A stretch of 39,008 nucleotides of DNA from NCBI GenBank assembly GCA_017541275.1, contig JAFXZM010000018.1, positions 1 through 39,008 of the forward strand, in the 5' to 3' direction. The translations under genes were made by a program, and so were the position numbers. Origin of the DNA: Oscillospiraceae bacterium. Its GTDB lineage: Bacteria > Bacillota > Clostridia > Oscillospirales > Ruminococcaceae. Below, one piece after another: positions 15,395 to 29,813 of the stretch. How positions within the stretch are numbered: the first letter of the stretch is position 1; each line of letters begins with the position of its first letter. The notes beneath the pieces are model-generated. The model was not told the origin of the DNA. It made no database searches and saw only the letters and a list, made by a program, of their open reading frames with translations.

Positions 15395-15447
15395 GATGTA
15401 ATTCTCCTTAGAAGGGATTTCTGCTGCTGCCGGATACGGCAAAGCGG

Positions 15448-15463
15448 AACAGTGTATACTGTT
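15448..15463. promoter_or_regulatory. Candidate operator dyad at the dockerin-gene start site
   Basis: AACAGTGTATACTGTT is a 16-bp inverted repeat (7 of 8 pairs) that abuts the -10 box and covers the expected transcription start. The protein that would bind is unknown. Confidence 0.5.
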
Positions 15464-15492
15464 ATTATACATAATGCGGTTCAAAATGTCAA
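15464..15492 (-). promoter_or_regulatory. Sigma-A promoter of the dockerin gene
   Basis: Minus strand TTGACA (15487-15492), 17-bp spacer, TATAAT (15464-15469). Both elements are perfect matches to consensus. Confidence 0.9.
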
Positions 15493-15785
15493 GAGAATAA
15501 CTGTAATTGTTAGCTATAGCCTGCGGTTTGGGCACGTTGTATACCGGGAGCGGCTTTATCATTTTTTTGAAATGCGATTGGCAGCGCTTCCGGCCGCAGG
15601 GGTTGTATGCAAACCCGTGCGCAGACGGCGAAACTCTCTTGCGTTCAAAAGCGCAAAAAGAGGGGGCATGGTGGAGAGAAAAATAATAAGTATTGCTCTT
15701 GTACAGACTGATATTTGAACAAAAAATCCCGGATTATCCACTCCCCGGCACAACAGAATTCCTGCACCTGCGGCAGAGCCGGCGC

Positions 15786-15846: not shown

Positions 15847-16095
15847 ATGGAGACCAGAACCGCAGTGATTGCGATTATTGTCCGGAATCCGGATTCCGCA
15901 GAGGGCATCAATGCGCTGCTGCACGAGTTTGCGGAGTATATCATCGGCAGAATGGGCGTGCCCTACCGCGTGAAAAAGCTGAATCTCATCAGCATCGCGG
16001 TCGATGCGCCGCAGAATATCATCAATACGCTTGCCGGAAGAATCGGCAGACTGCCGGGCGTTGAGGCAAAAACCGTTTACGCGCCGGCGGAATGA
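15847..16095 (+). CDS. TM1266-type putative iron-only hydrogenase system regulator
   Basis: An 82-aa protein matching the small TM1266 family, which has an ACT/NikR-C-like ferredoxin fold and is found beside [FeFe]-hydrogenase maturation genes. Typical features are the N-terminal beta strand AVIAIIVRN, a central INALLHEFAEYIIGRMG helix and the closing LPGVEAKTVYAP. GGGAGG lies upstream of ATG 15847; another ATG at 15840 is out of frame. It sits 208 nt before hydE, separated by a terminator-like hairpin. It may bind a small ligand and sense the state of the pathway; this is inferred from family and context. Confidence 0.85.
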   Translation: METRTAVIAIIVRNPDSAEGINALLHEFAEYIIGRMGVPYRVKKLNLISIAVDAPQNIINTLAGRIGRLPGVEAKTVYAPAE

Positions 16096-16165
16096 TACCG
16101 CTGAATCCGTCCACACCGATAGCTGTGCTTGAGGCTGCTGCACGGAGCATGAAAACTGAACATAT

Positions 16166-16286
16166 CCTGTCTCCTGACACCGAAAACGCGCTGCGTCTGA
16201 GGTAAAAGATTGGCAGTCCCGTTTGCATTCCGACGCATAATAAGGGGGCGGTCTGTCTTTCCGGAGACAGGCCGCCTGTTTTGTTT
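16166..16286 (+). promoter_or_regulatory. Terminator-like hairpin with competing upstream arm (possible attenuator)
   Basis: A 12-bp stem (16247-16258 with 16265-16276, one G-U pair) with a 6-nt loop and a TGTTTTGTTT tail forms an intrinsic terminator 17 nt before the hydE start. Upstream, CCTGTCTCC (16166-16174) is exactly complementary to GGAGACAGG (16263-16271) in its 3' half, so two mutually exclusive folds exist. The leader could therefore switch hydE and the following genes on or off. No known riboswitch class is recognised. Confidence 0.6.
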
Positions 16287-16303
16287 ATGAGGAGGGAGCA
16301 GGG

Positions 16304-17353
16304 ATGCAGCCGGAAAAGCAGGCACTTCTGCAAAAACTGACCGCACATGAAAAACTGAACAAAGCGCAGTGGATGACGCTGCTGACTGATGTGACGGAGG
16401 ATGACCGCGCAGAGGCAGCAAAGGCCGCAAGAGCCGAAGCTTTGCAGATATTCGGGAACAAGGTTTTTATCCGCGGCATCGTGGAATTCTCGAATTACTG
16501 CAAAAATGACTGCCTGTACTGCGGCATCCGGCGCTCGAATGCGAATGCACAGCGCTACCGCCTGACGGATGACGAGATTCTGGAATGCTGTGATGAAGGC
16601 TATGCGATCGGCTACCGGACATTTGTGCTGCAAAGCGGCGAGGATTTCACCTACACGGCATCGCATATCGCGGAGCTGGTGCGGCGCATCAAGGCCGCGC
16701 ACCCGGACTGTGCCGTGACACTCTCGCTGGGCGAGCGGGAATATGACGAGCTGAAGCTGATGCGTGCGGCGGGCGCTGACCGCTATCTGCTGCGGCATGA
16801 AACTGCAAACGCAGCGCATTACGGGATGCTGCACCCGCCGCAGATGTCGTTTGCGCACCGGATGGAGTGTCTCCGCGGCCTGAAAAGGCTGGGCTATCAG
16901 ACCGGCGCGGGCATGATGATCGGTGCACCGTATCAGACGGCGGAGCATCTGGCGGAGGACATGTGCTTTTTGCAGGAATTCCGCCCGGAAATGATCGGCA
17001 TGGGGCCGTTTCTGCCGCATAAGGACACGCCTTTTGCAAAGGAGCCAAAGGGCTCCTATGAGCTGACGCTCTACCTGCTGAGCCTTTGCCGCCTGATGCT
17101 GCCGCATGTACTGCTGCCCGCGACGACTGCGCTCGGTACGATTCATCCGCAGGGGCGGGAGCAGGGGATTCTGGCGGGCGCGAATGTCATCATGCCGAAC
17201 CTCTCGCCGACAGCCGTGCGGAAAAAATATATGCTTTACGATAACAAGATCTGCACGGAGGATCAGTCGTCCGACTGCCGCTTCTGTTTGCAGCAGCGGA
17301 TGAAGTCGATCGGCTATGAGGTTGCCGTGACGAGAGGAGATTATGCAGAATGA
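16304..17353 (+). CDS. hydE: [FeFe]-hydrogenase H-cluster maturase HydE (radical SAM)
   Basis: HydE is a radical-SAM enzyme that acts on an Fe(CO)2(CN)-cysteine unit during assembly of the [FeFe]-hydrogenase two-iron site. The 349-aa protein has the radical-SAM motif C66-x3-C70-x2-C73 inside [16 protein letters not shown], typical of HydE. It keeps the accessory cluster site C317-x7-C325-x2-C328 seen in Thermotoga HydE but absent from many homologues. GGAGGGAGC precedes ATG 16304. Its stop overlaps the ATG of the H-like gene by 4 nt (ATGA), so it is tied to the nitrogenase-like genes rather than to hydF or hydG, which are not in the window. It could be a true HydE or a paralogue recruited to another iron cofactor. 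Confidence 0.93.
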
Positions 17354-18102
17354 AAAAGCTGGCGATCTACGGAAAGGGCGGAATCGGCAAATCGACGATC
17401 TCCTGCAATATTTCGGCTGCATTGGCCGCAAGAGGGCTGCGGGTCATGCAGATCGGCTGTGACCCGAAGGCGGATTCGACCGCTCTGCTGCACGGCGGTA
17501 CGCGCATCCCGACGGTACTGGAGCTGGAGCGGCAAAAGGGCATGGGCGTAACGCTTGACGACCTTGTGCATACCGGAGAGGGCGGTGTGCTGTGTGCAGA
17601 GGCCGGCGGGCCGCTGCCGGGCGTGGGCTGTGCGGGGCGCGGCATCATCAATGCGCTCGAAATGCTGAAGCGGCTCGGCGCATATGAGCGGTATCAGCCG
17701 GATATTGTGATATACGATGTGCTGGGCGATGTGGTCTGCGGCGGCTTTGCGATGCCGATGCGGGCAGGCTGTGCCGACAAGGTGTTTGTGGTGACCTCCG
17801 GCGAAAAAATGGCGAAATATGCGGCGGGCAATATCTGCATGGCCGTTGAGAATTTTCAGAACCGCGGCTATGCCTCGCTCGGCGGCATCATCCTGAACCG
17901 CAGGGGCACGGAGGGCGAGGACGCTGCCGTGCAGATGCTCGCGGACGATTTCCATACGAAGATCATCGGGGCGCTCGACCGGAGTGCGGAGATCGCGGAG
18001 GCGGAAAAGCATGACTGCACCCTCCGGGCGATTGCGCCGGACTGCACCGCAGCAAAGCAGCTCGATGCGATTGCAGCGGCAGTGCTGGAGGCCGTATCAT
18101 GA
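17350..18102 (+). CDS. Nitrogenase-like iron protein H1 (NifH/CfbC/BchL superfamily)
   Basis: A 250-aa P-loop ATPase expected to form a homodimer around one [4Fe-4S] cluster and to pass electrons to a component-1-like partner. It has the P-loop GKGGIGKST at residues 8-16, switch I DPKADST near 38-44, and the two cluster Cys at 94 (GCAGRG) and 130 (DVVCGGFA). It is shorter than NifH (about 290 aa) and lacks most of the C-terminal tail. The start overlaps the hydE stop; the stop overlaps the D1 start. A second copy (H2, 21143-21904) lies 3 kb downstream, and each copy heads its own D-K pair. True NifH is unlikely because the partners lack cofactor ligands. Confidence 0.95.
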
Positions 18103-19409
18103 GCACCGTACAGGAGCGCCCGCGCAGCATCCGCATTGCCGATGCGGACGGGACGGCTTTTTTTCCGTCCGGACTGGAATACAATACGCCGGTGCGCGGC
18201 ATGTGGAATATCGTCCACACAGGGATGCTCGTGCCCGGCGCGCATCAGATTTTCGCATGTGCGCAGGGCTGTCTGCGCGGTGTCATTCTGACAGCCGCTG
18301 AAATGAATGCCCTTGACCGCCTGAGCTGGATCTCGGTTTCCGAGCAGGATATGTATGACGGCAGCCTCGAATATGATATCATCGGCGGCTGCGCGGAGAT
18401 TCTGCACAAACTGCCGGAGCAGCCGAAGATCGTGCTGCTGTTTCTGAGCTGCATCCACCTGTTTGCGGGTGTTGATTTCGATATGATTCTCCGCACGCTG
18501 CATGAGCAGTTTCCGCAGGTGAAATTTGTGGACTGCTACATGACCCCGACCATGCGGCAGACAGTTCCGCCGGCCTTTCAGATGGCGGCGCAGCTTTATG
18601 CGGCACTCGAAGCGCGTCCGAATAATCCGAAGGCGGTGAGCATCATCGGCAACGACCGCCCCACGGATGAACAGTCGGAGCTTGTGCGCCTCATCCGTGA
18701 AAACGGCTTTGTGCTGCACGATCTCACGCTCTGCAAAACCTATGACGCATATCAGCGCATGGCAGAAAGCGCACTGAGCATAACCTATACGCCGATCGGC
18801 CGGTATGCCGGTGAAGCGCTGGAGCAGCGGCTCGGCATTCCGCAGCTTTATCTGCCAAACAGCTTTGATTATGCGCAGATACGGGAGAATTACCGGCAGC
18901 TCTGCAATTTGCTCGGCATGGCCTGTCCGGATTTCAAGGCGGAAATGCAGGCCGCAGATGCAGCGCTCGACGCGGCACAGCGCGAAATCGGCAGTACGGC
19001 GGTTGCAATAGACTTCACCGCTGTCACGCGGCCGTTTGAGCTGGCACTGCTGCTCTGCGAACACGGCTTCAGCGTGAAATATGTCATTGCGGATGCGGCG
19101 GGGGAGGAGCGCGCTGCTCTTGACCGTCTGCGGACGCTTTGTCCCGATCTGGAAATTCTCTCCGCAGTGAATGTGAATATGCTGCATCTGCATGACGAGC
19201 CGCATGAGCCGGTGCTGGCGGTCGGGCAGAAGGCCGCGTACTATTTCGCGACCGATCATTTTGTGAATATTGTTGTCAACGGCGGATATTACGGCTTTGC
19301 GGGCATACAGGCGCTCGCAAAGCTGATGACAGAGGCCTTCCGCGAACCGAAGGACAGCCGGACTGTGCTGCGGCACAAGGGACTCGGCTGCGCATCCTGT
19401 CTGCTGTGA
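18099..19409 (+). CDS. Nitrogenase component-1-like protein D1
   Basis: A 436-aa protein of the NifD/NifE/BchN/CfbD fold. Cys54 and Cys58 (ACAQGC) and Cys118 (FLSCIHL) match the regions of NifD cluster ligands Cys88 and Cys154; there is no clear match to Cys62. Aligning by eye on LGIP (residues 245-248), NifD Cys275 becomes Tyr230, and the NifD His442 position (HGYDGF) reads GGYYGF. FeMo-cofactor could therefore not be bound in the usual way. The C-terminus ends GCASCLL, a CxxC tail not typical of NifD. GGAGG and a 4-nt overlap couple it to H1. The substrate is unknown: an unassigned reductase or a cofactor scaffold are both open. Confidence 0.9.
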
Positions 19410-19423
19410 GGGAGGTGCCGGAA

Positions 19424-20578
19424 ATGAAAAATGTATCGCGCATTATTCCGTGCTGCGCGGCGGATACCTCCGGTGTCTGCTCGGCACTTTATGAGCTCGG
19501 CGGCATGACAGTCGTGCATGATGCCTCCGGCTGCAACTCGACCTATGCGACGCATGACGAGCCGCGCTGGTACGACATGCATTCGATGATCTTTATTTCC
19601 GCGCTGACCGAGCTGGACGCGATTCTGGGCGATGACGAAAAGCTCATTGCGGATGTGACCGCAGCAGCACATGATCTGCGGCCGCGCTTCATTGCGGTCT
19701 GCGGCTCGCCGATGCCGATGATGACCGGCACGGATTTTGATGCGGCGGCTGCGGAGATCGAACGGCGCACCGGCATCCGCACGCTTGCGATGCACACGAA
19801 CGGCACGCATTCCTATATCCCCGGTGCTTCCGAGGCGTTCTGCGCGATTGCAAAGGAATATGTGCGGCCGGCTGCGGAGACTGTACCGGGCGGTGTGAAC
19901 ATTCTCGGTGCAACGCCGCTCGATCTCGGCCTGACCGGAACCGCAGAAAGCCTGCGGGCATGGCTCAGGGAGAGCGGCTTCCGGGTCGTATCCTGCTTTG
20001 CAATGGGTGACAAGCTCGATTCGCTCATGCAGGCGGCATCTGCGCAGGTGAATCTTGTGATTTCGCAGACAGGGCTTGCCGCTGCGCAGTATTTGTATGA
20101 TGCATTCGGCATTCCGTATGTCTGCGGACTGCCGGTGGGTGCGCAGTTCTCCGCAGTCATTGCAAAGGCGCTGCGGTCTGCGGCGAAGACCGGCACATGC
20201 AGCTTTCCCTGTGCGCAGGGCAATTCTGCGGCGCACGGTGCGGTCACGGTCATCGGCGAGAGCATCATTTCGGGTTCCGTCGCGGCAGAGGCTGCAATGC
20301 AGACCGGGAAGCCGGTGCGTGTCATCTGTCCGCTGCCGTTTGATGCTGCCTGCATGAACGGTGTCACGGAAAGTCCGGCATCGGAGGAGGAGATCGCGCG
20401 TGACCTTGCCGGCAATCCGCCGGAGACCGTCATCGCAGACCCGCTGTACCGCTATATTCTCCCGCAGGGGACAAGGCATATGGAGCTGCCGCATTTCGCG
20501 TTTTCGGGGCGCTGCTTTGACAGGCGCATCCCCGACCTCTGCGGCAAACAGTTTGCATCATTTATTAAGGAGATATAA
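19424..20578 (+). CDS. Nitrogenase component-1-like protein K1
   Basis: A 384-aa partner of D1 with the NifK/NifN-type fold. ATG 19424 has GGAGGTG just upstream; the GTG at 19406 overlapping the D1 stop is a possible alternative. Cys11, Cys37 and Cys93 have nearly the spacing of the NifK P-cluster ligands (70, 95, 153), so a cluster at the D-K interface is likely. Shared features with K2 are Cys19, Cys37, DEPRW at residues 45-49, DAILG, IGATPL and a C-terminal PHFAxSGR. It is much shorter than NifK (about 520 aa). Together with H1 and D1 it forms a complete two-component reductase set. Confidence 0.9.
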   Translation: MKNVSRIIPCCAADTSGVCSALYELGGMTVVHDASGCNSTYATHDEPRWYDMHSMIFISALTELDAILGDDEKLIADVTAAAHDLRPRFIAVCGSPMPMMTGTDFDAAAAEIERRTGIRTLAMHTNGTHSYIPGASEAFCAIAKEYVRPAAETVPGGVNILGATPLDLGLTGTAESLRAWLRESGFRVVSCFAMGDKLDSLMQAASAQVNLVISQTGLAAAQYLYDAFGIPYVCGLPVGAQFSAVIAKALRSAAKTGTCSFPCAQGNSAAHGAVTVIGESIISGSVAAEAAMQTGKPVRVICPLPFDAACMNGVTESPASEEEIARDLAGNPPETVIADPLYRYILPQGTRHMELPHFAFSGRCFDRRIPDLCGKQFASFIKEI

Positions 20579-20580
20579 TC

Positions 20581-21126
20581 ATGGGCTTATTTGCAAAGCT
20601 GTTCGGAAAAAAGGAAGAGAAACCGAAACCGGAGGAATCCCAAAAGGATGAACGCATCACATTCGATTCCCCGCACGGCAAGTTTTATTATATAAATAAC
20701 GTGAATGAGATCGGCTATGAGTGCGATACCGACTGGTATCCGGACCGCAGCGGGATGGACAGTGTGGGCGCGTATATCGACACGGATACGCCGGAAACAA
20801 CCGAGGCAAAGCAGTGCTATGCAAGGCTGGAAGCGCTGTTTGCCGACAAAGAACGCATTGATTCTGAGGTGAAGCGGCTGGCCGCGGCGTACTTTATGTC
20901 GAAGCCGGAGCTGCTTCTGGTCAAGCGTTCTCAGGAGGAACAGATCGCGCACACAAAGCTGCTCAGTATCAGTGTTTACCGGAACGGCGATGCGTCGTTC
21001 TTGCTGGACATGACCTGGGCGGATGCGGATTTGATTATTGTGTATTTCAAGGCAGACGGCAGCAGGGAGATCACATACCATACCGGCGAGCGCGAGACAT
21101 TCAAAGAATGCTGCGAAAAACTGTAA
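20581..21126 (+). CDS. Hypothetical protein, 181 aa, between the two nitrogenase-like sets
   Basis: Starts 2 nt after the K1 stop with AAGGAGA upstream, so it is clearly in the transcript. The N-terminus is a basic stretch ([15 protein letters not shown]), then a compact domain begins around residue 28 ([10 protein letters not shown]). It weakly resembles DUF2262-like proteins, judged by eye only. It has no metal-binding motif, membrane helix or signal peptide. Its codon use matches the neighbours. An accessory role for the nitrogenase-like sets is suggested by position alone; it could equally be a passenger. Confidence 0.75.
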
Positions 21127-21142
21127 AAACGGTGAGAAGATC

Positions 21143-21904
21143 ATGATTAAAATTGCAATTTACGGCAAGGGCGGCATCGGCAAATCGACCTGTACCGCGA
21201 ATCTTTCGGCGGCATTTGCGTCGCTGGGCAGAAAGGTCATCCAGATCGGCTGCGACCCGAAGGCGGATTCCACAATCAATCTGCTCGGCGGCAGGCCGGT
21301 GACGCCGGTCATGGACTATATGCGGATGCATGACGATGACCCCGAACACATTGAGGAGATCTCGCGCATCGGCTTCGGCGGAGTGCTGTGTATTGAGACA
21401 GGCGGCCCGACACCCGGGCTCGGCTGTGCAGGGCGCGGCATCATCACGACCTTCAGCCTGCTGGAGCAGCTCAATCTCTTTGAGGAATACAAGCCCGATG
21501 TCGTGATGTACGACGTGCTGGGCGATGTGGTCTGCGGCGGGTTTGCGGCGCCGATCCGGGAGGGCTATGCGGAGCAGGTGCTCATCGTGACCTCCGGCGA
21601 AAAAATGGCGCTTTATGCGGCGAACAACATTAACAATGCGGTCAGAAACTTCGCGGACCGCAGCTATGCAAAGGTGCGCGGCATCATCATGAACCGCCGG
21701 AATGTGGAGGATGAGGAAGCGAAGGTGCGCGCATTTGCGGCATCTGCGGGACTGGAGATCACCGCGGATATCCCGCGCTCGGACGACATTATCCGCTGCG
21801 AAGATCAGGGCAGAACGGTCATCGAGGGCGCACCGGACTGTGAGGCTGCAAAGCGCTTTCTTGCACTCGCGGAGAAGCTGATCGCGGAGGAGCGGAGCGA
21901 ATGA
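21143..21904 (+). CDS. Nitrogenase-like iron protein H2
   Basis: A 253-aa second copy of the ATP-dependent iron protein. ATG 21143 is preceded by GGTGAG; longer in-frame starts would run into the upstream gene. P-loop GKGGIGKST at 8-16, switch I CDPKADST, cluster Cys95 (GCAGRG) and Cys131 (DVVCGGFA). It is clearly related to H1 over its whole length but keeps a segment [13 protein letters not shown] (about 61-73) nearer to the NifH layout. The stop overlaps the D2 start, so H2, D2 and K2 are translationally coupled. Whether H1 and H2 each serve only their own D-K pair cannot be told from sequence. Confidence 0.95.
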
Positions 21905-23193
21905 ATCACGCATATTACATAACGGCGGCCGATCTGGCGGAGCGCGGTGCGGACAATATTCCGGACGAGCTGCGGTCTGCAAAGCACATGATCTACAGCT
22001 CTCCGGCGACGCTCGATTACAACTCGCCGGGTGCAAAGGGCTTCGGGGTGAAGCGTGCGGGTCTGGTCATTCCGGAATCGGTGATGCTGCTGGTCGCGCC
22101 GGGCTGCTGCGGCCGGAATACTGCGCTGCTGAACGAGCTGGGCTACAGTGAGCGATTTTTCTATCTGATGCTCGATGACACCGATATTGTCACCGGCAGA
22201 TATCTGAACAAAATCCCGAAGGCCTGCGCGGAGATTGCAGAGGAGCTTGACAAAAAGCCGTCCGTCATCGTCATCTGCGTGACCTGTGTGGATGCGCTGC
22301 TCGGCACGGACATGGAGCGTGTGTGCCGGAGCTGTGAGGAGGCATCGGGCATTCCGTCGATTCCGGCGTACATGTATGCGCTGACGCGGGAAAAGCGTCT
22401 GCCGCCGATGGCAATGGTGCGGCAGGCGGTCTATTCGCTGCTGGAGCCGCAGAAGCGCCTGCCGAATGAATGTGCGCTGCTTGGATATTTCTCGGCACTC
22501 GACGACGGCTGCGAGCTGTATGCACTGCTGAAAGCAGCGGGAATCCGCAAGATCCATGAGATCGGGCGGTGCGGCACATTTGAAGAATACAAGGAGATTT
22601 CCCGTGCGAATTTCAGCATTGTGCTGAATGCGGAGGCGCGGTATGCGGCGCAGGATATGCAGAAAAAGCTCGGAATTCCGTTTATTGAGCTGACAAGGCT
22701 GTACCGCATTGACAAAATCCGCACGCAGTACAGGCTGCTCGGGCAGGCGATCGGCGCGAAGCTGGACGATGCCGCGTATTATGCGGAAGCAGCGCAGAAA
22801 ATCGCAGATTTTCGGGAAAAACACGGCGTTCTGCGATTCGCGGTCGGGGAAATGCTCAATGCGGACAGCTTTGAGCTGGCGCTGTCACTGCTGGAATACG
22901 GGCATCAGGTCAGCGAGATTTACGGGACGGTCGGGGAGCGGAATTTTGTGTTTGTGAAGCGCATTGCAGCGGTCTCGCCGCAGACGCGCATTTACTCGAA
23001 TCTGCATCCGTCAATGCTCGGCTATGCGCGTGACTGCGAGATCGACGCCGCAATCGGCAATGACGCGAAATATTACCATAAAGATCTGCCGGGCATCGGC
23101 TTTCAGGAGGAGGCGCAGCCCTTTGGCTACCGCGGCGTGAACCTGCTCTTTGACGGTCTGGACGCGGCGCTGACGGAAGGAGCGGGAGCATGA
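21901..23193 (+). CDS. Nitrogenase component-1-like protein D2
   Basis: A 430-aa NifD/NifE-fold protein, paralogous to D1. Candidate cluster ligands are Cys69/Cys70 (APGCCGR) and Cys126/Cys129 ([14 protein letters not shown]); the second region resembles NifD around Cys154. Another CxxC pair is at 142/145. Aligned by eye on KLGIP, the FeMo-cofactor Cys275 position is Leu and the His442 position is Phe (PFGYRG), so no FeMo-cofactor is expected. It overlaps H2 upstream and K2 downstream by ATGA junctions with strong GGAGGAG signals. The role is unknown; its Cys set differs from D1, so the two complexes probably do different steps. Confidence 0.9.
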
Positions 23194-24215
23194 GCAGTCT
23201 GCTGAAGCATCTGTCGCCCCTCGCGCCGGACGATTCCGGTGCGTGCGGTGTGTTTTATGAGCTGGGCGGCATCACGGTCATCTGCGATGCCGGCGGCTGT
23301 GCGGGCAATGTCTGCGGCTTTGACGAGCCGCGCTGGCATGAAAAGCAGTCGGCGCTGTTCAGTGCGGGTCTGCGCGATATGGACGCGATTTTAGGCCGCG
23401 ATGACCGGTTGGTCGAAAAGCTGCGGCTGATCTGTCAGCAGATTGAAGCGCCGTTTACAGCGATTGTCGGGACACCTGTTCCGGCTGTTATCGCGACCGA
23501 TTTTCACGCGCTGCAGCGAATGGCCGAGCGTAAGACCGGCCTGCCGTGCATCACGGTTGCGAGCGACGGCACAAAGCTCTATGATTACGGCGAAATGCTC
23601 GCCTATGAGGAGCTGTTCCGGCGGTTTGCGGCGGAGGCCCTGCCGGTCAAACCTGAAAAGGTCGGCGTGATCGGCGCGACGCCGCTGAATACGGGTCTGA
23701 CACGCGCCGACAGCATCATTTCGGCGTTGAAATCGCAGGGATACAGCGAGGTCGTGTGCTTTGGCATGGACAGCGGATTTGATGCGATTACCCGTGCATC
23801 GGAATGTGCGCATCTGCTGGTGATCTCACCGTCCGGCCTCCGGGCTGCGGAATATCTGCACCGGCGCTTCGGAACGCCGTATTCGGTCGGGTTCCCGGTT
23901 ATTCCGGCGCAGGCCGCAGAGGCGGCGGGGACGCTGCGCGGAAAGCGGGTGCTGATCGTGCATCAGCAGTTTGCGGCGAATGCGCTGCGCGGTATGCTGA
24001 CGGACTGCGAGGCCGATGCCGCGACATGGTTCATGCTTGACCGCGCATATGCCGCGCCGCAGGATTTTCGCATCCGGAGCGAGGCACATCTCTGCGAGGC
24101 TGCACAGCATTACGATGTGATCTTTGCAGATGCGGTGCTGAAGCGGGTGCTGCGAGGCTTTTCCGGCGAACTGATCGACTTCCCGCATTTTGCCGTCAGC
24201 GGCAGACTGAACTGA
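23190..24215 (+). CDS. Nitrogenase component-1-like protein K2
   Basis: A 341-aa partner of D2. It aligns with K1 through Cys19, YELGG, Cys37, DEPRW (45-49), FSAGL...DAILG, IGATPLNTGLT and the C-terminal FPHFAVSGR. Unlike K1 it lacks Cys at positions 11 and 93 (Leu and Val), so only one or two K-side cluster ligands remain. An interface cluster would then be held mostly by D2, or have an open iron site, as in dark-operative protochlorophyllide reductase where one ligand is not Cys. AAGGAGC precedes the start. The stop is 10 nt from hypF, which ties this set directly to Fe-cyanide synthesis genes. Confidence 0.9.
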   Translation: MSSLLKHLSPLAPDDSGACGVFYELGGITVICDAGGCAGNVCGFDEPRWHEKQSALFSAGLRDMDAILGRDDRLVEKLRLICQQIEAPFTAIVGTPVPAVIATDFHALQRMAERKTGLPCITVASDGTKLYDYGEMLAYEELFRRFAAEALPVKPEKVGVIGATPLNTGLTRADSIISALKSQGYSEVVCFGMDSGFDAITRASECAHLLVISPSGLRAAEYLHRRFGTPYSVGFPVIPAQAAEAAGTLRGKRVLIVHQQFAANALRGMLTDCEADAATWFMLDRAYAAPQDFRIRSEAHLCEAAQHYDVIFADAVLKRVLRGFSGELIDFPHFAVSGRLN

Positions 24216-24225
24216 GGTGCAGCGC

Positions 24226-26532
24226 ATGAAAACAATGAAGCTGCGTGTGTTCGGCATCGTTCAGGGCGTCGGGTTCCGGCCGTTTACGGCGGTCGCCGCA
24301 CAGCGCCACGGCGTCAGCGGGACTGTTGCGAACAAAGGCTCCTATGTGGAGATCGTCGCGCAGGGCGGGGCGGCGCAGCTTGCCGCATTTGCCGATGAAA
24401 TTCGGAATCACCCGCCGGAGCGCGCTGTTGTGCTTGATCTCGAACAGGCGGATATCAGTGACGAAAACACACGCAATTACAATGATTTCACGATTATTGA
24501 AAGCGAAAAGGAATACGGCAGGATATTTGTCTCACCGGACATCGCGACCTGCGGCAAATGCCGCGCGGAGCTGTATGACCCGAAAAACCGGCGATATCTG
24601 CACCCTTTCATCAACTGCACACAGTGCGGCCCCCGGCTGACGATTCTCGATACGATGCCGTATGACCGTGAGCGCACGAGCATGAAGGCCTTTCCGATGT
24701 GTCCGGAATGCGCGGCGGAGTATCACGACCCGGCGACCCGGCGATACGATGCACAGCCGGTCTGCTGCAATGACTGCGGCCCGCAGGTGCGCATTCTCGG
24801 CACAGAGCTGACCGGCGGCGATGCAGTCACGGCGGTGCGGCGGGCTGTCATGCAGGGGAAGATCGCGGCAGTCAAGGGCATCGGCGGCTTTCATCTCTGC
24901 TGCGATGCGAGGAATGCAGAGGCAGTGCGGCGGCTGCGGCAGCTCAAGCACAGGCCGATGAAGCCCTTTGCGGTCATGATGCGCGATATGGAGACCGTGC
25001 GGCGCGAGTGCGTTGTGCAGGCGGGGCAGGAGGCATATCTCACCGGCTGGCAGAAGCCGGTCATGCTGCTGGAAAAGTGCGCAGATATGTCACTTTGCGA
25101 TTTGATTGCACCGGATAACGAAACGGTCGGCGTGATGCTGCCCTATGCGCCGGTGCAGATGCTTTTGTTTGATTATCCGGACGGCATCGACATGACCGAC
25201 TGCATGGTGATGACGAGCGGCAACGCCCGCGGTGCGCCGATTTGCCGGAATGATGCCGATGCGCAGAAGGAGATCGCGGGATTCTGCGACCTGATTCTGA
25301 CGCATGACCGTGAGATTCTCATTCGTGCGGACGATTCCGTCTGCGACTGGCTGGAGGGCGCACCGTACATGATCCGGCGGTCACGCGGCTTTGCGCCGCT
25401 GCCGGTGATGCTGCGGGAGGCGGTCGGGCGGCAGGTGCTTGCGATCGGCGGCGAGCTGAAAAACAGCTTTTGCATTGCACGGCACGGAATGCTCTATGCT
25501 TCGCCCTATGTCGGCGACACGGCCGATCTGCGGACGGTTGCGGCGCTGCGGGAATCCGCAGAGCGCCTCTGCGGGCTGCTCGAAGCGGAGCCGGAGCTGG
25601 TTGTCTGCGATACGCACCCGCTTTACAATACTGTGACAGTCGCACAGGAAATCGCGCAGGAACGAGGTATTCCGCTGCTTCAGGTACAGCATCACTACGC
25701 GCATATCCTCTCGTGCATGGCCGAGAACGGCTGCACGGAGCGCGTGCTCGGCCTGAGCTTTGACGGCACCGGCTACGGCGATGACTGCACAGTCTGGGGC
25801 GGCGAGCTGCTGCTCTGTGACCCGCACGGCTATACCCGCACCGGCAGCGTTGAGCCGTTCATGCAGACCGGCGGCGACCTCTCCGCCAAGGAGGGCTGGC
25901 GCATCGCGGCGGCGCTGCTTGGGGACGATGCACTGTGCGAAGCGCTCGGCGTCTGCGCGGCGCAGGAATCGCGTGTCATCGGGAATATGGCGCGGCTCGG
26001 CGTGAATTCTGTGAAGTCCACAAGCTGCGGCAGAATATTTGATGCGGTGTCGGCGGTGCTGGGCATCCGGCGCGCCTCGACCTTTGAGGGGGAGGCTTCG
26101 GTCTCACTGATGACGCGGGCGGAGCAATTTGCAAAGCAAAACGGCGTATCTGCGTTAAAATTACCGTGCAGCGTGACCGAAAACGGCGGCTTTGTGACCA
26201 TGCAGACAACAGCGCTCGTACAGGAGACCGCACAGCGGTTTTGGCAGAGCTGCACACCGGAAAACCGCGATGCGCTGGCATATGCTTTTCATGATGCACT
26301 TGTCGAAATGCTTGTATCTGCGAGCGAAATCATACGCGAGCAGACCGGCATCGGCATCTGTGCGCTCAGCGGCGGCGTCTTTCAGAACCGTCTGCTGACA
26401 AGGATGACTGCGGAACGTCTGCGGGCTGCGGGCTTCCGCGTGCTTCTGCACCGGCTCATACCGCCCAACGACGGCGGCATCTGCATCGGGCAGGCTTATT
26501 ACGGATTAAATCATGATACGTTCAGGAGGTAA
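24226..26532 (+). CDS. hypF: Carbamoyltransferase HypF
   Basis: HypF turns carbamoyl phosphate into a carbamoyl-adenylate and moves the carbamoyl group to HypE, the first step to the cyanide ligands of [NiFe]-hydrogenases. The start at 24226 is 6 nt after GAGGTG; 768 aa is normal. In order: acylphosphatase domain (VQGVGFRPF at 12-20), two zinc fingers (Cys109/112/131/134 and 159/162/181/184), a YrdC-like domain (about 200-385) and a Kae1-like transferase domain (about 395-768, with HHYAHILS and FDGTGYGDD). All landmarks are intact. It follows K2 by 10 nt and its stop lies inside the ribosome site of hypC. Confidence 0.97.
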   Translation: MKTMKLRVFGIVQGVGFRPFTAVAAQRHGVSGTVANKGSYVEIVAQGGAAQLAAFADEIRNHPPERAVVLDLEQADISDENTRNYNDFTIIESEKEYGRIFVSPDIATCGKCRAELYDPKNRRYLHPFINCTQCGPRLTILDTMPYDRERTSMKAFPMCPECAAEYHDPATRRYDAQPVCCNDCGPQVRILGTELTGGDAVTAVRRAVMQGKIAAVKGIGGFHLCCDARNAEAVRRLRQLKHRPMKPFAVMMRDMETVRRECVVQAGQEAYLTGWQKPVMLLEKCADMSLCDLIAPDNETVGVMLPYAPVQMLLFDYPDGIDMTDCMVMTSGNARGAPICRNDADAQKEIAGFCDLILTHDREILIRADDSVCDWLEGAPYMIRRSRGFAPLPVMLREAVGRQVLAIGGELKNSFCIARHGMLYASPYVGDTADLRTVAALRESAERLCGLLEAEPELVVCDTHPLYNTVTVAQEIAQERGIPLLQVQHHYAHILSCMAENGCTERVLGLSFDGTGYGDDCTVWGGELLLCDPHGYTRTGSVEPFMQTGGDLSAKEGWRIAAALLGDDALCEALGVCAAQESRVIGNMARLGVNSVKSTSCGRIFDAVSAVLGIRRASTFEGEASVSLMTRAEQFAKQNGVSALKLPCSVTENGGFVTMQTTALVQETAQRFWQSCTPENRDALAYAFHDALVEMLVSASEIIREQTGIGICALSGGVFQNRLLTRMTAERLRAAGFRVLLHRLIPPNDGGICIGQAYYGLNHDTFRR

Positions 26533-26538
26533 AAAATT

Positions 26539-26748
26539 ATGTGTGTCGGATTATCTGCAAGAGTGGTCAATGTGACAAACGGAACGGCGCTGATCGACGC
26601 GAACGGTGCGCAGAGAGCGGTCAGTGCGGGAATTCTCGAAGACCTTGAACCGGGCGATTTCGTCATGGTGCATGCCGGCGTCGCGATCGCGAAGATCACG
26701 GCGGACGATGAACAGGAGGCCGACGACGTCATGGAGGAGCTGCTGTGA
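26539..26748 (+). CDS. hypC: Hydrogenase maturation chaperone HypC
   Basis: HypC is a small OB-fold chaperone that, with HypD, carries the Fe(CN)2CO unit and normally delivers it to the [NiFe]-hydrogenase large subunit. The 69-aa protein begins Met-Cys-Val-Gly: Cys2 is the essential iron-binding residue exposed after Met removal. AGGAGG overlaps the hypF stop. The stop overlaps the hypD GTG start. No hydrogenase large subunit is present in the window, so the recipient of the iron unit is open. Confidence 0.95.
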   Translation: MCVGLSARVVNVTNGTALIDANGAQRAVSAGILEDLEPGDFVMVHAGVAIAKITADDEQEADDVMEELL

Positions 26749-27791
26749 ACGATAGCATGAAGGCCGCAAGGGAGATCATTACCTCCTACAGCGGCAGGCC
26801 GCTCCGCATTATGGAGGTCTGCGGAACGCATACGCATGAGATTTTCCGGCTGGGGCTTCGCAGGCTGCTGCCGGAGCAGATCGAGCTGATCTCCGGGCCG
26901 GGATGTCCGGTCTGCGTGACGGCCGTCGGGTTTATTGACGAGGCCTGCTGGCTCGCGCTCGAAAAGCAGTGTATCATCTGCACTTTCGGCGACCTCATCC
27001 GCGTGCCGGGTACGGATATGAGCCTTGCGGGTGCGCGCGCAAAGGGCGCGGAGGTCAGGCCGGTATATTCGCCGCTGGATGCGGTCGAGCTGGCAAAGCA
27101 GAACCCTGACCGGCAGGTTGTATTTCTCGCGGTCGGCTTTGAAACGACCACGCCGGCGGCATGTCTCGCGGCAAAGCAGGCGAGGGAAGCCGGTCTGACG
27201 AATTTTTCGCTGCTGACTGCCAATAAGACCATGCCGAATGCATACAAGGCGCTGGTCGGCTCTGCGGATGCATTTCTGTATCCGGGGCATGTGAATGCGA
27301 TCACGGGCAATGCAGTCTGCAAGGAAATGTGCGAAAAATACGGTGTATCGGGCGTGGTTGCGGGATTCACCGCAGGCGAGCTGCTGACGGCGCTGGCCGT
27401 GACGGTCAGGCTGCTGGGCGAGGGCAAAACGCCGTTCTTCCGCAACTGCTATCCGCGTGTTGTCAGGGATGAGGGAAATCCCGCCGCGATCGCGCTGATG
27501 CACGAGGTCATGGAGCCATGCGACAGCGAGTGGCGCGGGCTTGGCATGATCCCGCAGTCCGGCATGAAGCTTCGTGCGGAATATGCGGAATACGATGCGC
27601 GGCTGAAGCATCAGATGCCGGTCATCACCGGAAAGCCGAATCCGGCATGCCGCTGCGGCGATGTGCTTCAGGGGAAGATCAGGCCGTGTGAATGCAAGGT
27701 GTTCGGTAAGGTATGCACACCGATGCATCCGGTCGGGGCATGTATGGTGTCCGACGAGGGCGCCTGCGCCGCATATTATCAGTATAGCTAA
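26745..27791 (+). CDS. hypD: Hydrogenase maturation protein HypD
   Basis: HypD is the [4Fe-4S] scaffold on which Fe(CN)2CO is built, in complex with HypC and HypE. Conserved sites are Cys26 in MEVCGTHTHEI, GPGCPVC (Cys54 and Cys57, the thiol-redox pair), and a C-terminal Cys cluster from about 301 (CRCGDVL...CECKVFGKVC...GACMV...GAC) that holds the iron-sulfur cluster. GTG 26745 is chosen because GGAGGAG lies 5 nt upstream and it overlaps the hypC stop; ATG 26757 is a less likely alternative. The protein is 348 aa and complete. It is followed by a perfect 18-bp palindrome. Confidence 0.96.
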   Translation: MNDSMKAAREIITSYSGRPLRIMEVCGTHTHEIFRLGLRRLLPEQIELISGPGCPVCVTAVGFIDEACWLALEKQCIICTFGDLIRVPGTDMSLAGARAKGAEVRPVYSPLDAVELAKQNPDRQVVFLAVGFETTTPAACLAAKQAREAGLTNFSLLTANKTMPNAYKALVGSADAFLYPGHVNAITGNAVCKEMCEKYGVSGVVAGFTAGELLTALAVTVRLLGEGKTPFFRNCYPRVVRDEGNPAAIALMHEVMEPCDSEWRGLGMIPQSGMKLRAEYAEYDARLKHQMPVITGKPNPACRCGDVLQGKIRPCECKVFGKVCTPMHPVGACMVSDEGACAAYYQYS

Positions 27792-27808
27792 GACGGCCAT
27801 GGCCGTCT
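27791..27808. promoter_or_regulatory. Perfect 18-bp palindrome after hypD
   Basis: AGACGGCCATGGCCGTCT is fully self-complementary and starts at the last base of the hypD stop. There is no T-run, so it is not a standard terminator. It could be an operator or an RNA-processing stem. Confidence 0.4.
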
Positions 27809-27825
27809 GCGCGGGGTGAATTGTC

Positions 27826-28515
27826 ATGGAATATCAAGACGTACAAAGGATTGCAAAAGAAACGATTTCCTATATAAAAACGGTTATCAGACCGAATATG
27901 AATCTGATTGATGTAAGGCATTTATGCGAAGAAAAAATGCTGTCATTGGGCGCAGATTCGTTTTGGTACTGGGATATCGGTGCATTTGTGTTTTCCGGCG
28001 ATGAAACAACTGTATCCGTTTCAGGACGGGAATACATTACCTCTGACAGATCAATCGGCAGCAATGACATGATTACGATTGACCTCAGTCCCCAGTGCAA
28101 TCATATCTGGGGTGACTATGCACGCACGATTGTGATTGAAAACGGCAAGGCTGCAGATAGTATAGAGCAGATTCAAAACGATGAATGGCGGAACGGTCTG
28201 CTGATGGAAGAACGGCTGCATCGCGAGCTCATTGCTTTTGTCACGCCTCAGACGTCATTTGAAGAACTCTATTTGCATATCAATGACTATATAATTGAAA
28301 ATGGTTTTATAAACCTCGACTTTATGGGGAATCTCGGACATTCGATTGTAAAGAATAAAGACGACCGTGTTTATATTGAAAAGGGAAATCACGCATTGCT
28401 GTCATCGGTTGACTTTTTTACATTCGAGCCGCATATCAGTATTCCAAATTCCAAATACGGATATAAAAAAGAGAACATCTATTATTTTTCGGACGGGAAG
28501 CTGGCTGAATTATAA
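27826..28515 (+). CDS. M24-family (methionine/Xaa-Pro aminopeptidase-like) protein
   Basis: A 229-aa creatinase/aminopeptidase-fold protein. Likely metal ligands are in order: Asp in TIDLSPQ, Asp in WGDYART, His in LGHSIV, Glu in FTFEPHI and a final Glu in KKENIYYF, matching the D-D-H-E-E set of M24 metallopeptidases. It lacks the N-terminal creatinase domain and is slightly shorter than a methionine aminopeptidase. It is markedly AT-richer than the hyp genes around it, which suggests a later insertion between hypD and hypE. GGGGTGA lies upstream of the ATG. A processing role in the cluster is possible but only positional. Confidence 0.8.
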   Translation: MEYQDVQRIAKETISYIKTVIRPNMNLIDVRHLCEEKMLSLGADSFWYWDIGAFVFSGDETTVSVSGREYITSDRSIGSNDMITIDLSPQCNHIWGDYARTIVIENGKAADSIEQIQNDEWRNGLLMEERLHRELIAFVTPQTSFEELYLHINDYIIENGFINLDFMGNLGHSIVKNKDDRVYIEKGNHALLSSVDFFTFEPHISIPNSKYGYKKENIYYFSDGKLAEL

Positions 28516-28618
28516 GATTGATTCTGAAAGCCTGCAAAAACGCGCATTTCTGTTTCACAGGAATGCAGCATAAATTCGGCTTTGAAAAAAACAAAAGCCG
28601 ATCGTAAGAGGTGTATCT

Positions 28619-28792
28619 ATGGAACCGCATGAATATACTGTCACGGACATTCAGGGCGATTACGCGCTGCTGACGCAGACCGACGCCGACGGCGCAGAGC
28701 CGTTTCCGGTCGCGCTGGCACTGCTGCCGCCCGGTACCGATACCGGAACCAGACTCACAGGATTTATGGGCTGCTTTGAGCCCGCAGAATAA
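28619..28792 (+). CDS. Small acidic protein, 57 aa (DUF3006-like)
   Basis: A short gene with AGGTG upstream of ATG 28619 and a stop 13 nt before hypE. The layout (EYTVTDIQGDYALL, then PVALALLPPGTDTG) resembles DUF3006-type small beta proteins, judged by eye. No Cys pair, signal peptide or membrane helix. It lies between the M24-like gene and hypE and shares the high GC of the hyp genes. Function unknown. Confidence 0.6.
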   Translation: MEPHEYTVTDIQGDYALLTQTDADGAEPFPVALALLPPGTDTGTRLTGFMGCFEPAE

Positions 28793-28805
28793 AAGGAGAA
28801 GAATC

Positions 28806-29813
28806 ATGAACGAAAAAACGGTCACGCTTGCGCACGGCGCGGGCGGCTCACAGACAAATGAACTGATCGACAGCGTGTTCAAGGCGCATTTCGCGAATCC
28901 GCTGTTTACGGGCGACGATGCGGCCGTTCTGCCGCGTCCGGAGGGACAGATTGCGGCCTCAACGGACGGCTTTATTGTGTCGCCGTGGAAATTCAACGGC
29001 GGAAACATCGGCAAGCTCTCGATCTGCGGAACAGTCAACGACCTCTCCTGCATGGGTGCGAAGCCGCTTTACCTGACCTGTGCATTCGTCATTGAGGAGG
29101 GCTTTCCGCTCGATGCGCTGGAGGAAATTGCCGCTGCTATGGAGAAAACCGCTGCCGAGGCCGGCGTGCGCGTCGTCGCGGGCGATACCAAGGTCGCCGG
29201 AAAAGGACAGTGTGACGGCGTGTTTATCACAACGACCGGCATCGGCGAGATCATGCCGCAGGCGCATACCTCCGGCACACTCGCAAAGCCCGGCGACGCG
29301 GTCATCGTGACGGGCGACGTCGGCAGACACGGCTGTACGATTCTGCTTGCGCGCAACGATTTCGGCATCGAATCCGATGTGGACAGTGATTGTGCGCCGC
29401 TCTGGGGCACCGTGCAAAGCCTGTACAGTGTTACTGACGAGATTCATGTGATTCGCGATGCAACGCGCGGCGGGGTCGGCACGGTGCTCTATGAGATTGC
29501 GGGGCAGAGCAGTGTCGGCATCACGCTCGATGCGGCATCCGTACCGGTAGACCCGCGTGTCAAAGGCGTCTGCGGCATGCTCGGACTGGAGCCGCTGTAT
29601 CTCGCCTGTGAGGGCAGACTGGTGATTATTGCGCCGCAGGAGCATGCCGACGCGATCGTTGCGGAGCTGCGCAGGGGCCGGTATTCGCAGAATGCTGCGG
29701 TGATCGGCAGAGTTACCGCCGAAAACGCAGGCAGGGTCATCATGGAGACCGAGATCGGCACACAGACTGTTCTCCCGCAGCCTAAGGGCGAGCTTCTGCC
29801 GCGCATCTGCTGA
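28806..29813 (+). CDS. hypE: Hydrogenase maturation protein HypE
   Basis: HypE accepts the carbamoyl group from HypF on its C-terminal Cys and dehydrates it with ATP to a thiocyanate, which supplies cyanide to iron on HypCD. The 335-aa protein begins with the ATP-binding LAHGAGGSQTNEL and GDDAAVL stretches and ends exactly in PRIC, the conserved catalytic tail (Cys335). AAGGAGAAG precedes ATG 28806. HypE is complete, so the window encodes a whole cyanide-ligand pathway (HypF, E, C, D) without the nickel-insertion proteins HypA and HypB. Confidence 0.97.
   Translation: MNEKTVTLAHGAGGSQTNELIDSVFKAHFANPLFTGDDAAVLPRPEGQIAASTDGFIVSPWKFNGGNIGKLSICGTVNDLSCMGAKPLYLTCAFVIEEGFPLDALEEIAAAMEKTAAEAGVRVVAGDTKVAGKGQCDGVFITTTGIGEIMPQAHTSGTLAKPGDAVIVTGDVGRHGCTILLARNDFGIESDVDSDCAPLWGTVQSLYSVTDEIHVIRDATRGGVGTVLYEIAGQSSVGITLDAASVPVDPRVKGVCGMLGLEPLYLACEGRLVIIAPQEHADAIVAELRRGRYSQNAAVIGRVTAENAGRVIMETEIGTQTVLPQPKGELLPRIC

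Follow-up and report, generated by a model that had tools for sequence, protein, structure and literature searches.

A nitrogenase-like and Hyp gene block in the place of hydG: a probable HydG-independent route to the CO/CN-ligated iron of [FeFe]-hydrogenases

Introduction

Current understanding attributes every CO and CN ligand of the [FeFe]-hydrogenase H-cluster to HydG, and all five of them reportedly derive from tyrosine. The normal substrate of HydE is the Fe(CO)2(CN)(cysteine) synthon supplied by HydG. HypF and HypE turn carbamoyl phosphate into cyanide, and HypCD assemble an Fe(CN)2CO unit. What, then, is made by an operon in which hydE is followed by two nitrogenase-like H-D-K (HDK) sets and by hypFCDE? 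Such an operon was found in an Oscillospiraceae bacterium, within the window studied here (the whole 39,008-nucleotide stretch of contig JAFXZM010000018.1, assembly GCA_017541275.1).

A related puzzle has been described in acetogens, five of eight of which, including Clostridium carboxidivorans, possess HydE and HydF without HydG (PMC9431212, 2022). A radical SAM protein in HydG's role, for which a candidate of approximately 450 amino acids was present in seven of the eight, and stray CO and CN were proposed as explanations in that paper. C. carboxidivorans carries the HDK/Hyp block, which thus offers a testable answer to the acetogen puzzle. In the available excerpt of a transposon screen of C. 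autoethanogenum (PMC9004356), none of the block's genes was found.

Organization of the operon

The genes occupy positions 15847-29813, all on the + strand, in an operon-like arrangement:

15847..16095, +, TM1266-family [FeFe]-hydrogenase-system regulator, 82 aa (TIGR03959 100.7 bits, cut-off 60.8)
16304..17353, +, hydE, radical SAM H-cluster maturase (TIGR03956 547 bits, cut-off 254.6)
17350..18102, +, H1, nitrogenase-Fe-protein-like ATPase of set 1 (PF00142 287 bits; TIGR01287 301 bits, below its cut-off of 394)
18099..19409, +, D1, nitrogenase component-1-like subunit of set 1 (PF00148 72.9 bits, cut-off 28.6)
19406..20578, +, K1, second component-1-like subunit of set 1 (PF00148 109.7 bits, cut-off 28.6)
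20581..21126, +, X181, 181-aa ORF, window-specific (no Pfam or NCBIfam match)
21143..21904, +, H2, nitrogenase-Fe-protein-like ATPase of set 2 (PF00142 298 bits)
21901..23193, +, D2, component-1-like subunit of set 2 (PF00148 95 bits, cut-off 28.6)
23190..24215, +, K2, component-1-like subunit of set 2 (PF00148 63 bits, cut-off 28.6)
24217..26532, +, hypF, carbamoyltransferase of CN ligand synthesis (TIGR00143 722 bits, cut-off 466)
26539..26748, +, hypC, Fe(CN)2CO chaperone (TIGR00074 56.7 bits, cut-off 48)
26745..27791, +, hypD, Fe(CN)2CO scaffold (TIGR00075 405 bits, cut-off 193)
27826..28515, +, M24-peptidase-like ORF, 229 aa (PF00557 70.6 bits; GC 0.40, far below its surroundings)
28619..28792, +, 57-aa ORF between hypD and hypE (no Pfam match)
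28806..29813, +, hypE, CN ligand synthesis (TIGR02124 409 bits, cut-off 252)

Every gene named in the initial annotation is present on the + strand. The first of the 'two small genes' that it placed between hypD and hypE is the 229-aa M24-peptidase-like ORF. Four-base overlaps occur at six junctions (hydE/H1, H1/D1, D1/K1, H2/D2, D2/K2 and hypC/hypD). K1 starts with GTG, with an alternative ATG at 19424. Among 107 sources, many of them short contigs, orthologues of X181, the M24-like ORF and the 57-aa ORF were found in one (the window itself), two and eight (the window included) respectively. X181 and the M24-like ORF were therefore rejected as core parts, the latter also for its low GC; it is probably an insertion into the operon.

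Nitrogenase-like and Hyp proteins

The Fe-protein P-loop and two cluster cysteines are present in the H proteins, and a 15-residue segment and VCGGF are invariant across the 13 H rows compared. Both cluster cysteines of H1 are conserved in 90 of 90 orthologues and those of H2 in 83-84 of 84; H2 forms a clade of its own with 100/100 support. In D1, Cys58 and Cys118 are kept in 99/99 orthologues and Cys54 in 96/99; in D2, Cys69 and Cys70 in 82/82 and Cys126 and Cys129 in 83/83; in K2, Cys37 in 83/83 and Cys42 in 82/83. Only about four cluster-type cysteines are conserved in D1/K1, and K1 has the conserved motif HDASGCNSTYxTHDEPRW (AlphaFold model, mean pLDDT 79.6).

None of these proteins belongs to a named functional family by the curated NCBIfam models. 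H1 and H2 score 301 and 311 bits against the nifH cut-off of 394, the D/K proteins reach at most 63 bits against nif D/K cut-offs of 427 and more, and all H/D/K proteins fall below the cut-offs of the CfbC, BchL, BchX, CfbD, BchN and BchB models. A true nitrogenase or a known nitrogenase-like enzyme was thus rejected, the relatives in the PDB also being remote, and the view that the D/K proteins lie outside known functional clades holds. In profile searches, NifE ranked first or second among the PDB relatives of D1, K1, D2 and K2 (38-80 bits, very remote), an affinity that suggests a scaffolding role. Weak matches were also obtained to PDB entries 9fmg and 9d9u, which we take to be structures of the Mar nitrogenase-like enzyme.

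HypF, HypC, HypD and HypE all exceed their curated cut-offs with their catalytic cysteines conserved (the C-terminal Cys of HypE in 56/56 orthologues, Cys2 of HypC in 74/74); HypA and HypB were not among the operon genes identified. The CX3CX2C cysteines of HydE are kept in 61/61 orthologues. All 12 family genomes with this HDK family contain HydF and a PF02906 match; in the window's genome, HydF is on contig C46 and an [FeFe]-hydrogenase with H-cluster motifs on C11.

These Hyp proteins, apparently intact, might be taken to mature a [NiFe]-hydrogenase, but this is extremely improbable. Of 148 family genomes, the five with two HDK sets, and no others, have HypD but lack a NiFe hydrogenase: no match to the NiFe large subunit (PF00374) was found in the window's genome or the four others, whereas the six remaining HypD-bearing family genomes all have one. 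Service to a NiFe hydrogenase was accordingly rejected.

Distribution of the block

The arrangement is not that of a single strain, since 509 stretches with a K1 relative were found in genome_contigs. A genome scan with K1 gave 57 loci of at least 15 kb, of which 55 contain D2, 52 hypD and 40 hydE; these counts indicate that the gene arrangement is not due to chance. Its hosts include numerous bacteria of the rumen and gut, together with some acetogens.

Three types of locus were distinguished. Type A has two HDK sets and Hyp. Type B, the simpler relatives, has one HDK set (set 1) and a B12/siderophore-type importer in place of Hyp, with no Hyp within the loci and no HypD in the genomes; two loci, on a 3.3-kb contig (G022) and at a contig end (G141), were assigned to type B on the strength of their set-1 proteins, HypD being absent. 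Type C comprises related HDK sets with the same importer, in HydG-containing genomes or without hyd genes nearby; a plasmid search yielded one such locus, from Treponema saccharophilum. The ancestral function of the HDK sets may therefore differ. The importer genes of types B and C are of the BtuCDF/siderophore type, are annotated as an iron ABC transporter in Treponema, and in some type B genomes encode an ATPase with a TM1266-like domain.

Replacement of HydG

HydG, scored at a cut-off of 312 bits, and the HDK family are nearly mutually exclusive. Among 72 HydE-containing genomes of the family set, HydG was found in 0 of 12 with this HDK family and in 58 of 60 others (Fisher p 6e-12, a value that overstates independence because the genomes share ancestry). 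In the class set, it was found in 0 of 10 HDK core genomes versus 176 of 184 others. The database scan gave HydG in one of the 50 genomes listed (50 of 80 loci) and none in the other 49; Clostridium drakei has both systems. The three sets overlap: G000 (the window's genome), G063, G112 and G015 belong to the family set as well as the class set, and at least L081 and L103 of the database set appear to correspond to G065 and G406. The sole HydG match in the window's genome, which is 75.6% complete, was HydE itself (56.8 bits), and the exclusion argument rests on relatives of 86-99% completeness.

In the family set, the exclusion is specific to this HDK family. Of 26 genomes over the PF00148 cut-off, 14 were treated separately as carrying nitrogenase or other nitrogenase-like proteins; HydG is present in nine of these 14, and a general exclusion of HydG by PF00148 proteins was rejected. 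One of the 14, the HydG-containing G126, has a partial PF00148 match (L045) and no BLAST match to D1, K1, D2 or K2. The class set core consists of the 10 of 16 K1-profile matches that are linked to hyd or hyp genes; the others were set apart by neighbourhood, four as type C (G344, G269, G375 and G338) and two as weak matches (G463 and G473). HydG occurs in G344, G269, G375 and G463, hence in 4 of all 16. HydG can also be absent for other reasons, since eight HydE-containing genomes of this set lack both it and the HDK core (G262, G271, G296, G356, G379, G411, G453 and G477; four are less than 90% complete).

The block also occupies the position of hydG. HydG-containing relatives have the order regulator-hydE-hydG(-hydF), with a homologue of the regulator as first gene, and HDK family genomes have regulator-(hydF)-hydE-H1D1K1. 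Where a family genome has both genes, hydE and hydG are less than 1 kb apart in 36 of 58 cases, and H1 adjoins hydE in 8 of 12 HDK family genomes. Both states coexist within each of three genera, and the HydE tree needs five label changes, at least three of them forced by well-supported branches. Replacement of HydG by the HDK/Hyp block is thus strongly supported by gene content.

A hidden HydG, or stray CO and CN, would make the HDK/Hyp genes irrelevant to this loss. Besides the acetogen radical SAM candidate, about half of the HydG-less genomes contain matches of 170-222 bits (198 bits in C. carboxidivorans), which were not counted as HydG and are taken for putative ThiH. Such matches are also found in HydG-containing genomes, e.g. 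G108 and G096, and six genomes (G113, G065, G040, G030, G141 and G093) have no match besides HydE, which makes a hidden HydG highly improbable. About 1% HydA activation by HydE and HydF without HydG, from stray CO and CN, is cited in PMC9431212, so some HydG-free maturation needs no replacement.

Proposed route and alternatives

The block is best explained, with a probability of about three in four, as a way of supplying the [FeFe] H-cluster with CO/CN-ligated iron that needs no HydG, combining nitrogenase-like ATP-driven complexes with the NiFe-type Fe(CN)2CO machinery; its chemistry is inferred. The two D-K complexes would serve as scaffolds or converters in the manner of NifEN, with H1 and H2 providing the drive through ATP hydrolysis and low-potential electrons. 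Hyp-linked set 2 would receive or remodel the Fe(CN)2CO unit, and set 1, which is common to the simpler relatives and linked to hydE/hydF, would pass CO/CN-ligated iron on to HydE as a synthon. With HydF, HydE could then complete the [2Fe] unit as usual. In type B, the same job may be done by set 1 alone with the importer of the B12/siderophore class. An ATP-driven line around cyanide/CO-ligated iron, as first annotated, stays the likeliest reading, but its placement outside known hydrogenases does not: the hydG slot, the exclusion of HydG and the co-occurrence of [FeFe]-hydrogenases make the ordinary H-cluster the most likely destination.

Both nitrogenase and its Fe protein are capable of reducing CO2 to CO. 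The HDK sets might thus supply only CO, e.g. by CO2 reduction, with cyanide from Hyp and assembly on iron by HydE/HydF, so that HydG is still replaced and D-K carries no organometallic iron. The P-loop and cluster cysteines of the H proteins and the few cluster-type cysteines of D1/K1 would suit this account, which we consider fairly improbable: two distinct D-K sets are retained with Hyp in most long loci, type B has no evident cyanide source, and the NifE-like affinity points to scaffolding. Unlikely, too, is an independent metalloenzyme: the block would then produce, or itself form, a reductase that acts on another substrate by means of an Fe-CN/CO cofactor of its own, the loss of HydG being coincidental or compensated elsewhere. 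Nitrogenase-like enzymes do have diverse substrates, as far as the available part of PMC11423573 indicates, and type C sets stand beside the importer without hyd genes nearby; against this are the exclusion of HydG in three genome sets, the use of its slot, several switches, and linkage to hydE, hydF and the TM1266 regulator.

A Hyp-derived unit would naturally carry two cyanides and one CO per iron. The H-cluster of these [FeFe]-hydrogenases could therefore have a different diatomic ligand set, and four type A HydA have IPCT(A/S)KK in place of MPCTAKK as the second H-cluster motif. This appears distinctly unlikely, since HydE and HydF are retained, the HydA motifs are otherwise canonical, and MPCTAKK is kept in the window's HydA and in four from type B. 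The importer and its Treponema annotation could instead mean that HDK frees iron from an imported chelate, the hyd linkage reflecting only the iron need of maturation. This iron supply is very unlikely: it would not remove the need for HydG, Hyp is present in type A loci, and no such importer accompanies 56 of the 57 long loci (the exception, L125, is itself type B).

The HydG-independent route, if real, would be a previously undescribed, second and non-homologous way to build an organometallic cofactor; it would give nitrogenase-like proteins a new function and link the NiFe and FeFe hydrogenase pathways directly, in bacteria relevant to hydrogen in the rumen and to gas fermentation. A more speculative and improbable extension is that Hyp and set 2 of type A produce an organometallic precursor, iron with CO and CN ligands, and that type B imports such a precursor, or another small molecule that supplies its ligands, for conversion by set 1. 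Gut communities would in that case trade or scavenge H-cluster precursors as nutrients.

Comparison with known systems

NifEN, the FeMo-cofactor scaffold, is likewise a D-K-type scaffold served by an Fe protein (NifH) and is among the top two PDB relatives of D1, K1, D2 and K2, but the block's proteins are very remote from it, far under the NifE cut-off, and their operon lacks nif genes. MarBHDK, IsrBHDK, CfbCD and BchLNB share the H-D-K architecture and reduce a substrate; we know of no linkage of these systems to hyd or hyp genes. Mar and Isr lie beside a radical SAM gene, according to the available part of PMC11423573, but the D/K proteins of the block score under every curated NCBIfam cut-off. 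NifHEN-like pairs without an assigned role, reported in 2012 (PMC3464626), may be relatives, although the accessible text gives no link to HydE, Hyp or HydG.

The Hyp proteins resemble HypFCDE of [NiFe]-hydrogenase maturation in family membership and catalytic cysteines, and should make the Fe(CN)2CO unit, but their genes share an operon with hydE and two HDK sets. The presumed functional counterpart is HydG of the HydE-HydF-HydG system. HydG is one tyrosine-splitting radical SAM enzyme, whereas the block encodes ten proteins from other families, six of them nitrogenase-like subunits and four of them Hyp proteins; both share the operon slot and the partners (TM1266 regulator, HydE, HydF and HydA), and presumably the same product, CO/CN-ligated iron for HydE.

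Gene organization in the window

The initial annotation had described a gene train on a single strand, and this arrangement was borne out: the genes it named are present and all lie on the + strand, with recG as the next gene 3' of the train. The features concerned are as follows.

13790-15562, - strand: ORF encoding dockerin and phosphodiester glycosidase domains
15847-29813, + strand: gene train, in the order TM1266-family regulator, hydE, H1-D1-K1, 181-aa ORF, H2-D2-K2, hypF, hypC, hypD, M24-peptidase-like ORF, 57-aa ORF, hypE
27826-28515, + strand: the M24-peptidase-like ORF of the train

Overlaps of 4 bases are found at six junctions of the train. HydE and all four Hyp proteins exceeded curated NCBIfam cut-offs. 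Both H1 and H2 are full homologues of the Fe protein: the P-loop and cluster cysteines are present, and the nifH model gives scores of 301 and 311, against a cut-off of 394. D1, K1, D2 and K2 are members of PF00148 (the D/K domain), with scores far under every named-family NCBIfam cut-off.

The M24-peptidase-like ORF has a GC content of 0.40 within a 0.6-GC operon. It looks as if it were mobile, because a 62% identical copy in another locus (L050) sits between K1 and H2 instead. In one Clostridium (L103, L150), H1 and D1 read as a single ORF of 698 aa. The domains of the ORF on the opposite strand suggest a host with a cellulosome.

Orthologues of HydE, HypC, HypD and HypE retain the catalytic cysteines, among them the C-terminal cysteine of HypE in 56/56. 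Cys54, Cys58 and Cys118 are conserved in D1, and the cysteine of the K1 motif ASGCNS (Cys37 counted from the ATG at 19424) is present in 94/104 orthologues and invariant in 17 rows. Together, the conserved cysteines of D1 and K1 would be enough for one interface [4Fe-4S] cluster; D2 and K2 have six conserved cysteines. In profile searches of the PDB, NifE was the best relative of D1, K1 and K2, and with D2 the best match was 9p1x, followed by NifE; all of these matches are remote (38-80 bits). The structure model of K1 had a mean pLDDT of 79.6.

Locus types in the family

Seven models were searched in a draw of 148 genomes from the same taxonomic family. The [FeFe]-hydrogenase domain PF02906 was found in 144 genomes, HydF in 79, HydE in 72, HydG in 62, HypD in 11 and the NiFe large subunit in seven; PF00148 was above cut-off in 26. 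The divergent PF00148 matches of this set have two neighbourhood layouts.

Layouts of the nitrogenase-like (HDK) loci in the family set
Type A; five genomes (G000, the window's own, G035, G065, G071, G113); regulator-(hydF)-hydE-H1D1K1-H2D2K2-hypF-(hypC)-hypD-hypE
Type B; seven genomes (G022, G030, G032, G040, G063, G093, G141); one HDK set, akin to set 1

In two of the five type A genomes, including that of the window, hydF lies away from the locus. In the seven type B genomes, hyp genes are absent from the locus and HypD from the genome. A BtuCDF/siderophore-class substrate-binding protein, permease and ATPase are encoded in the locus wherever the contig is long enough (G030, G032, G040, G063 and G093); in G141 the substrate-binding protein is visible before the contig ends, and the G022 contig is 3.3 kb. 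Type B loci contain hydE in G030, G032, G040 and G093, and hydF in G032, G040 and G141. In G040, G063 and a further type B locus, L125, the last part of the importer ATPase ORF resembles TM1266.

Type B ABC-transporter ATPase ORFs with a C-terminal TM1266 match over about 75 residues
L039: 1770-2861
L041: 11266-12321
L125: 1626-3005

This C-terminus suggests that the importer is controlled by the same ligand as the TM1266 regulator.

Mutual exclusion with HydG

HydE, HydF and a PF02906 hydrogenase are present in all 12 type A and type B genomes. The HydA of the window's own genome carries the motifs TSCSPGW, MPCTAKK and EIMACPGGC, the second of which reads IPCT(A/S)KK in four type A relatives. 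By model search, HydG was above cut-off in none of these 12 genomes, as against 58 of the 60 remaining HydE-positive genomes of the family; the two exceptions are G016, which is 55% complete, and G049, where HydG occurs as three pieces, each under the cut-off. Fourteen further family genomes with other PF00148 proteins served as a control and do not avoid HydG, which nine of them have. The five type A genomes are the only ones of the set with HypD but no NiFe hydrogenase; in each of the remaining six with HypD there is a NiFe-type match, partial in most cases.

In a draw of 291 genomes across the class, a K1 profile matched 16, of which ten were assigned by neighbourhood to the hyd/hyp/set-1 core and six were set apart (two weak matches and four of type C, with a related HDK set and an importer). 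HydE is present in 10/10 core genomes and HydG in 0/10, compared with HydG in 176/184 other HydE-positive genomes; HydG also occurs in four of the six set apart, hence in 4/16 over all K1 matches. The Fisher p values for the family and class comparisons, 6e-12 and 2.7e-12, overstate independence because of common ancestry among the genomes and a slight overlap between the sets. Eight HydE-positive genomes of the class set have neither HydG nor the HDK core. Four of them (G262, G356, G411 and G477) are at least 91% complete and perhaps use a further route.

The operon place of hydG

Six HydG-positive loci of relatives (L184-L189) were examined. The operon runs regulator-hydE-hydG, often with hydF next: the three genes occur in L185, L186, L187 and L189, hydE-hydG in L184 and hydG-hydF in L188. 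The hydE-hydG distance is below 1 kb in 36 of the 58 family genomes carrying both, and H1 adjoins hydE in 8/12 type A and type B genomes. The HDK block thus occupies the operon place of hydG. Both states are found within three genera.

Genera with both states
Genus of the window: HDK in G000; HydG in G108
Genus of G035: HDK in G035; HydG in G143
Genus g182: HDK in G255, G332, G354 and G396; HydG in G282 and G437

In the four g182 genomes the block reads H2D2K2-hypFCDE-regulator-D1-K1-hydF, and since H1 is missing from the locus, a single Fe protein may serve both D-K complexes.

A HydE tree of 67 rows, its bootstrap not fully settled, needs five changes between the HDK and HydG labels, at least three of them forced by well-supported branches. 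On one side stand 22 of the 25 HDK-type HydE proteins, together with one HydG-type row. HydE of the type A Clostridium locus L103 groups with clostridial HydG-type HydE (support 98/94), which points to a separate acquisition of the block in that lineage.

Distribution and origin of the block

A K1-alignment scan of genome_contigs found 509 stretches encoding a K1 relative. The best 80 of the 509, which were retained, are mostly type A and include strains 8 and KH2T6 of Ruminococcus albus, the Clostridium species C. carboxidivorans, C. drakei, C. luticellarii and C. muellerianum, as well as three MAGs titled Lentisphaeria or Victivallales, a different phylum if the binning is right. Model search of 50 genomes from these best 80 found HydG in one, C. 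drakei.

In a midpoint-rooted tree of 51 H proteins, H2 forms one clade (100/100) and H1 of types A and B another (98/95), and the two are sisters (97/94). Type C falls just outside them and far from true NifH. Its loci (L153, L155, L156, L157 and L183) have H-D-K beside a substrate-binding protein, permease and ATPase, with no hyd genes nearby, and the type also occurs on a Treponema saccharophilum plasmid; no description of this nitrogenase-like group was found. Two loci more distant in sequence within the same family (L178 and L182) have the order H, permease, ATPase, D, K. A plausible history starts from a type C, importer-linked HDK set with another function, which came to be associated with hydE (type B); HDK duplication, joining with Hyp and loss of the importer from the locus would then have given type A.

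Proposed role in H-cluster assembly

HypFCDE produce an Fe(CN)2CO unit. In [FeFe]-hydrogenase maturation, HydE receives an Fe(CO)2(CN)(cysteine) synthon from HydG, the enzyme that produces it, and maturases can be bypassed with their synthetic products (PMC12752695). From gene content, we infer that the HDK block and Hyp together would make this synthon, or an equivalent, for HydE, so that HydG would not be needed. With H1 and H2 working on them, both D-K complexes would play a part like that of NifEN, as scaffolds or converters, and the candidate chemistries are cyanide-for-CO exchange, CO production or iron reduction.

A 2012 study described a linked pair of NifHEN-like sets, function unknown, in gut Firmicutes (PMC3464626). 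Judging by titles in reference lists, [FeFe]-hydrogenases have been reported for R. albus and for C. autoethanogenum. Searches of an open-access library, in which few subscription papers or preprints are included, listed no title or abstract linking nitrogenase-like genes, HydE/Hyp and HydG absence. Among eight Clostridium acetogens, HydE and HydF were present in all and HydG in three (PMC9431212). Its authors had no straightforward explanation for the missing HydG and considered mechanisms yet to be identified; one idea is an atypical radical SAM protein, and another is that HydE and HydF make do with stray CO and CN, for which a cited study found about 1% activation. C. carboxidivorans, one of the five listed there without HydG, carries a type A block (L116), and C. 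drakei, one of the three with HydG, has both HydG and the block; on these two species PMC9431212 and the present data agree.
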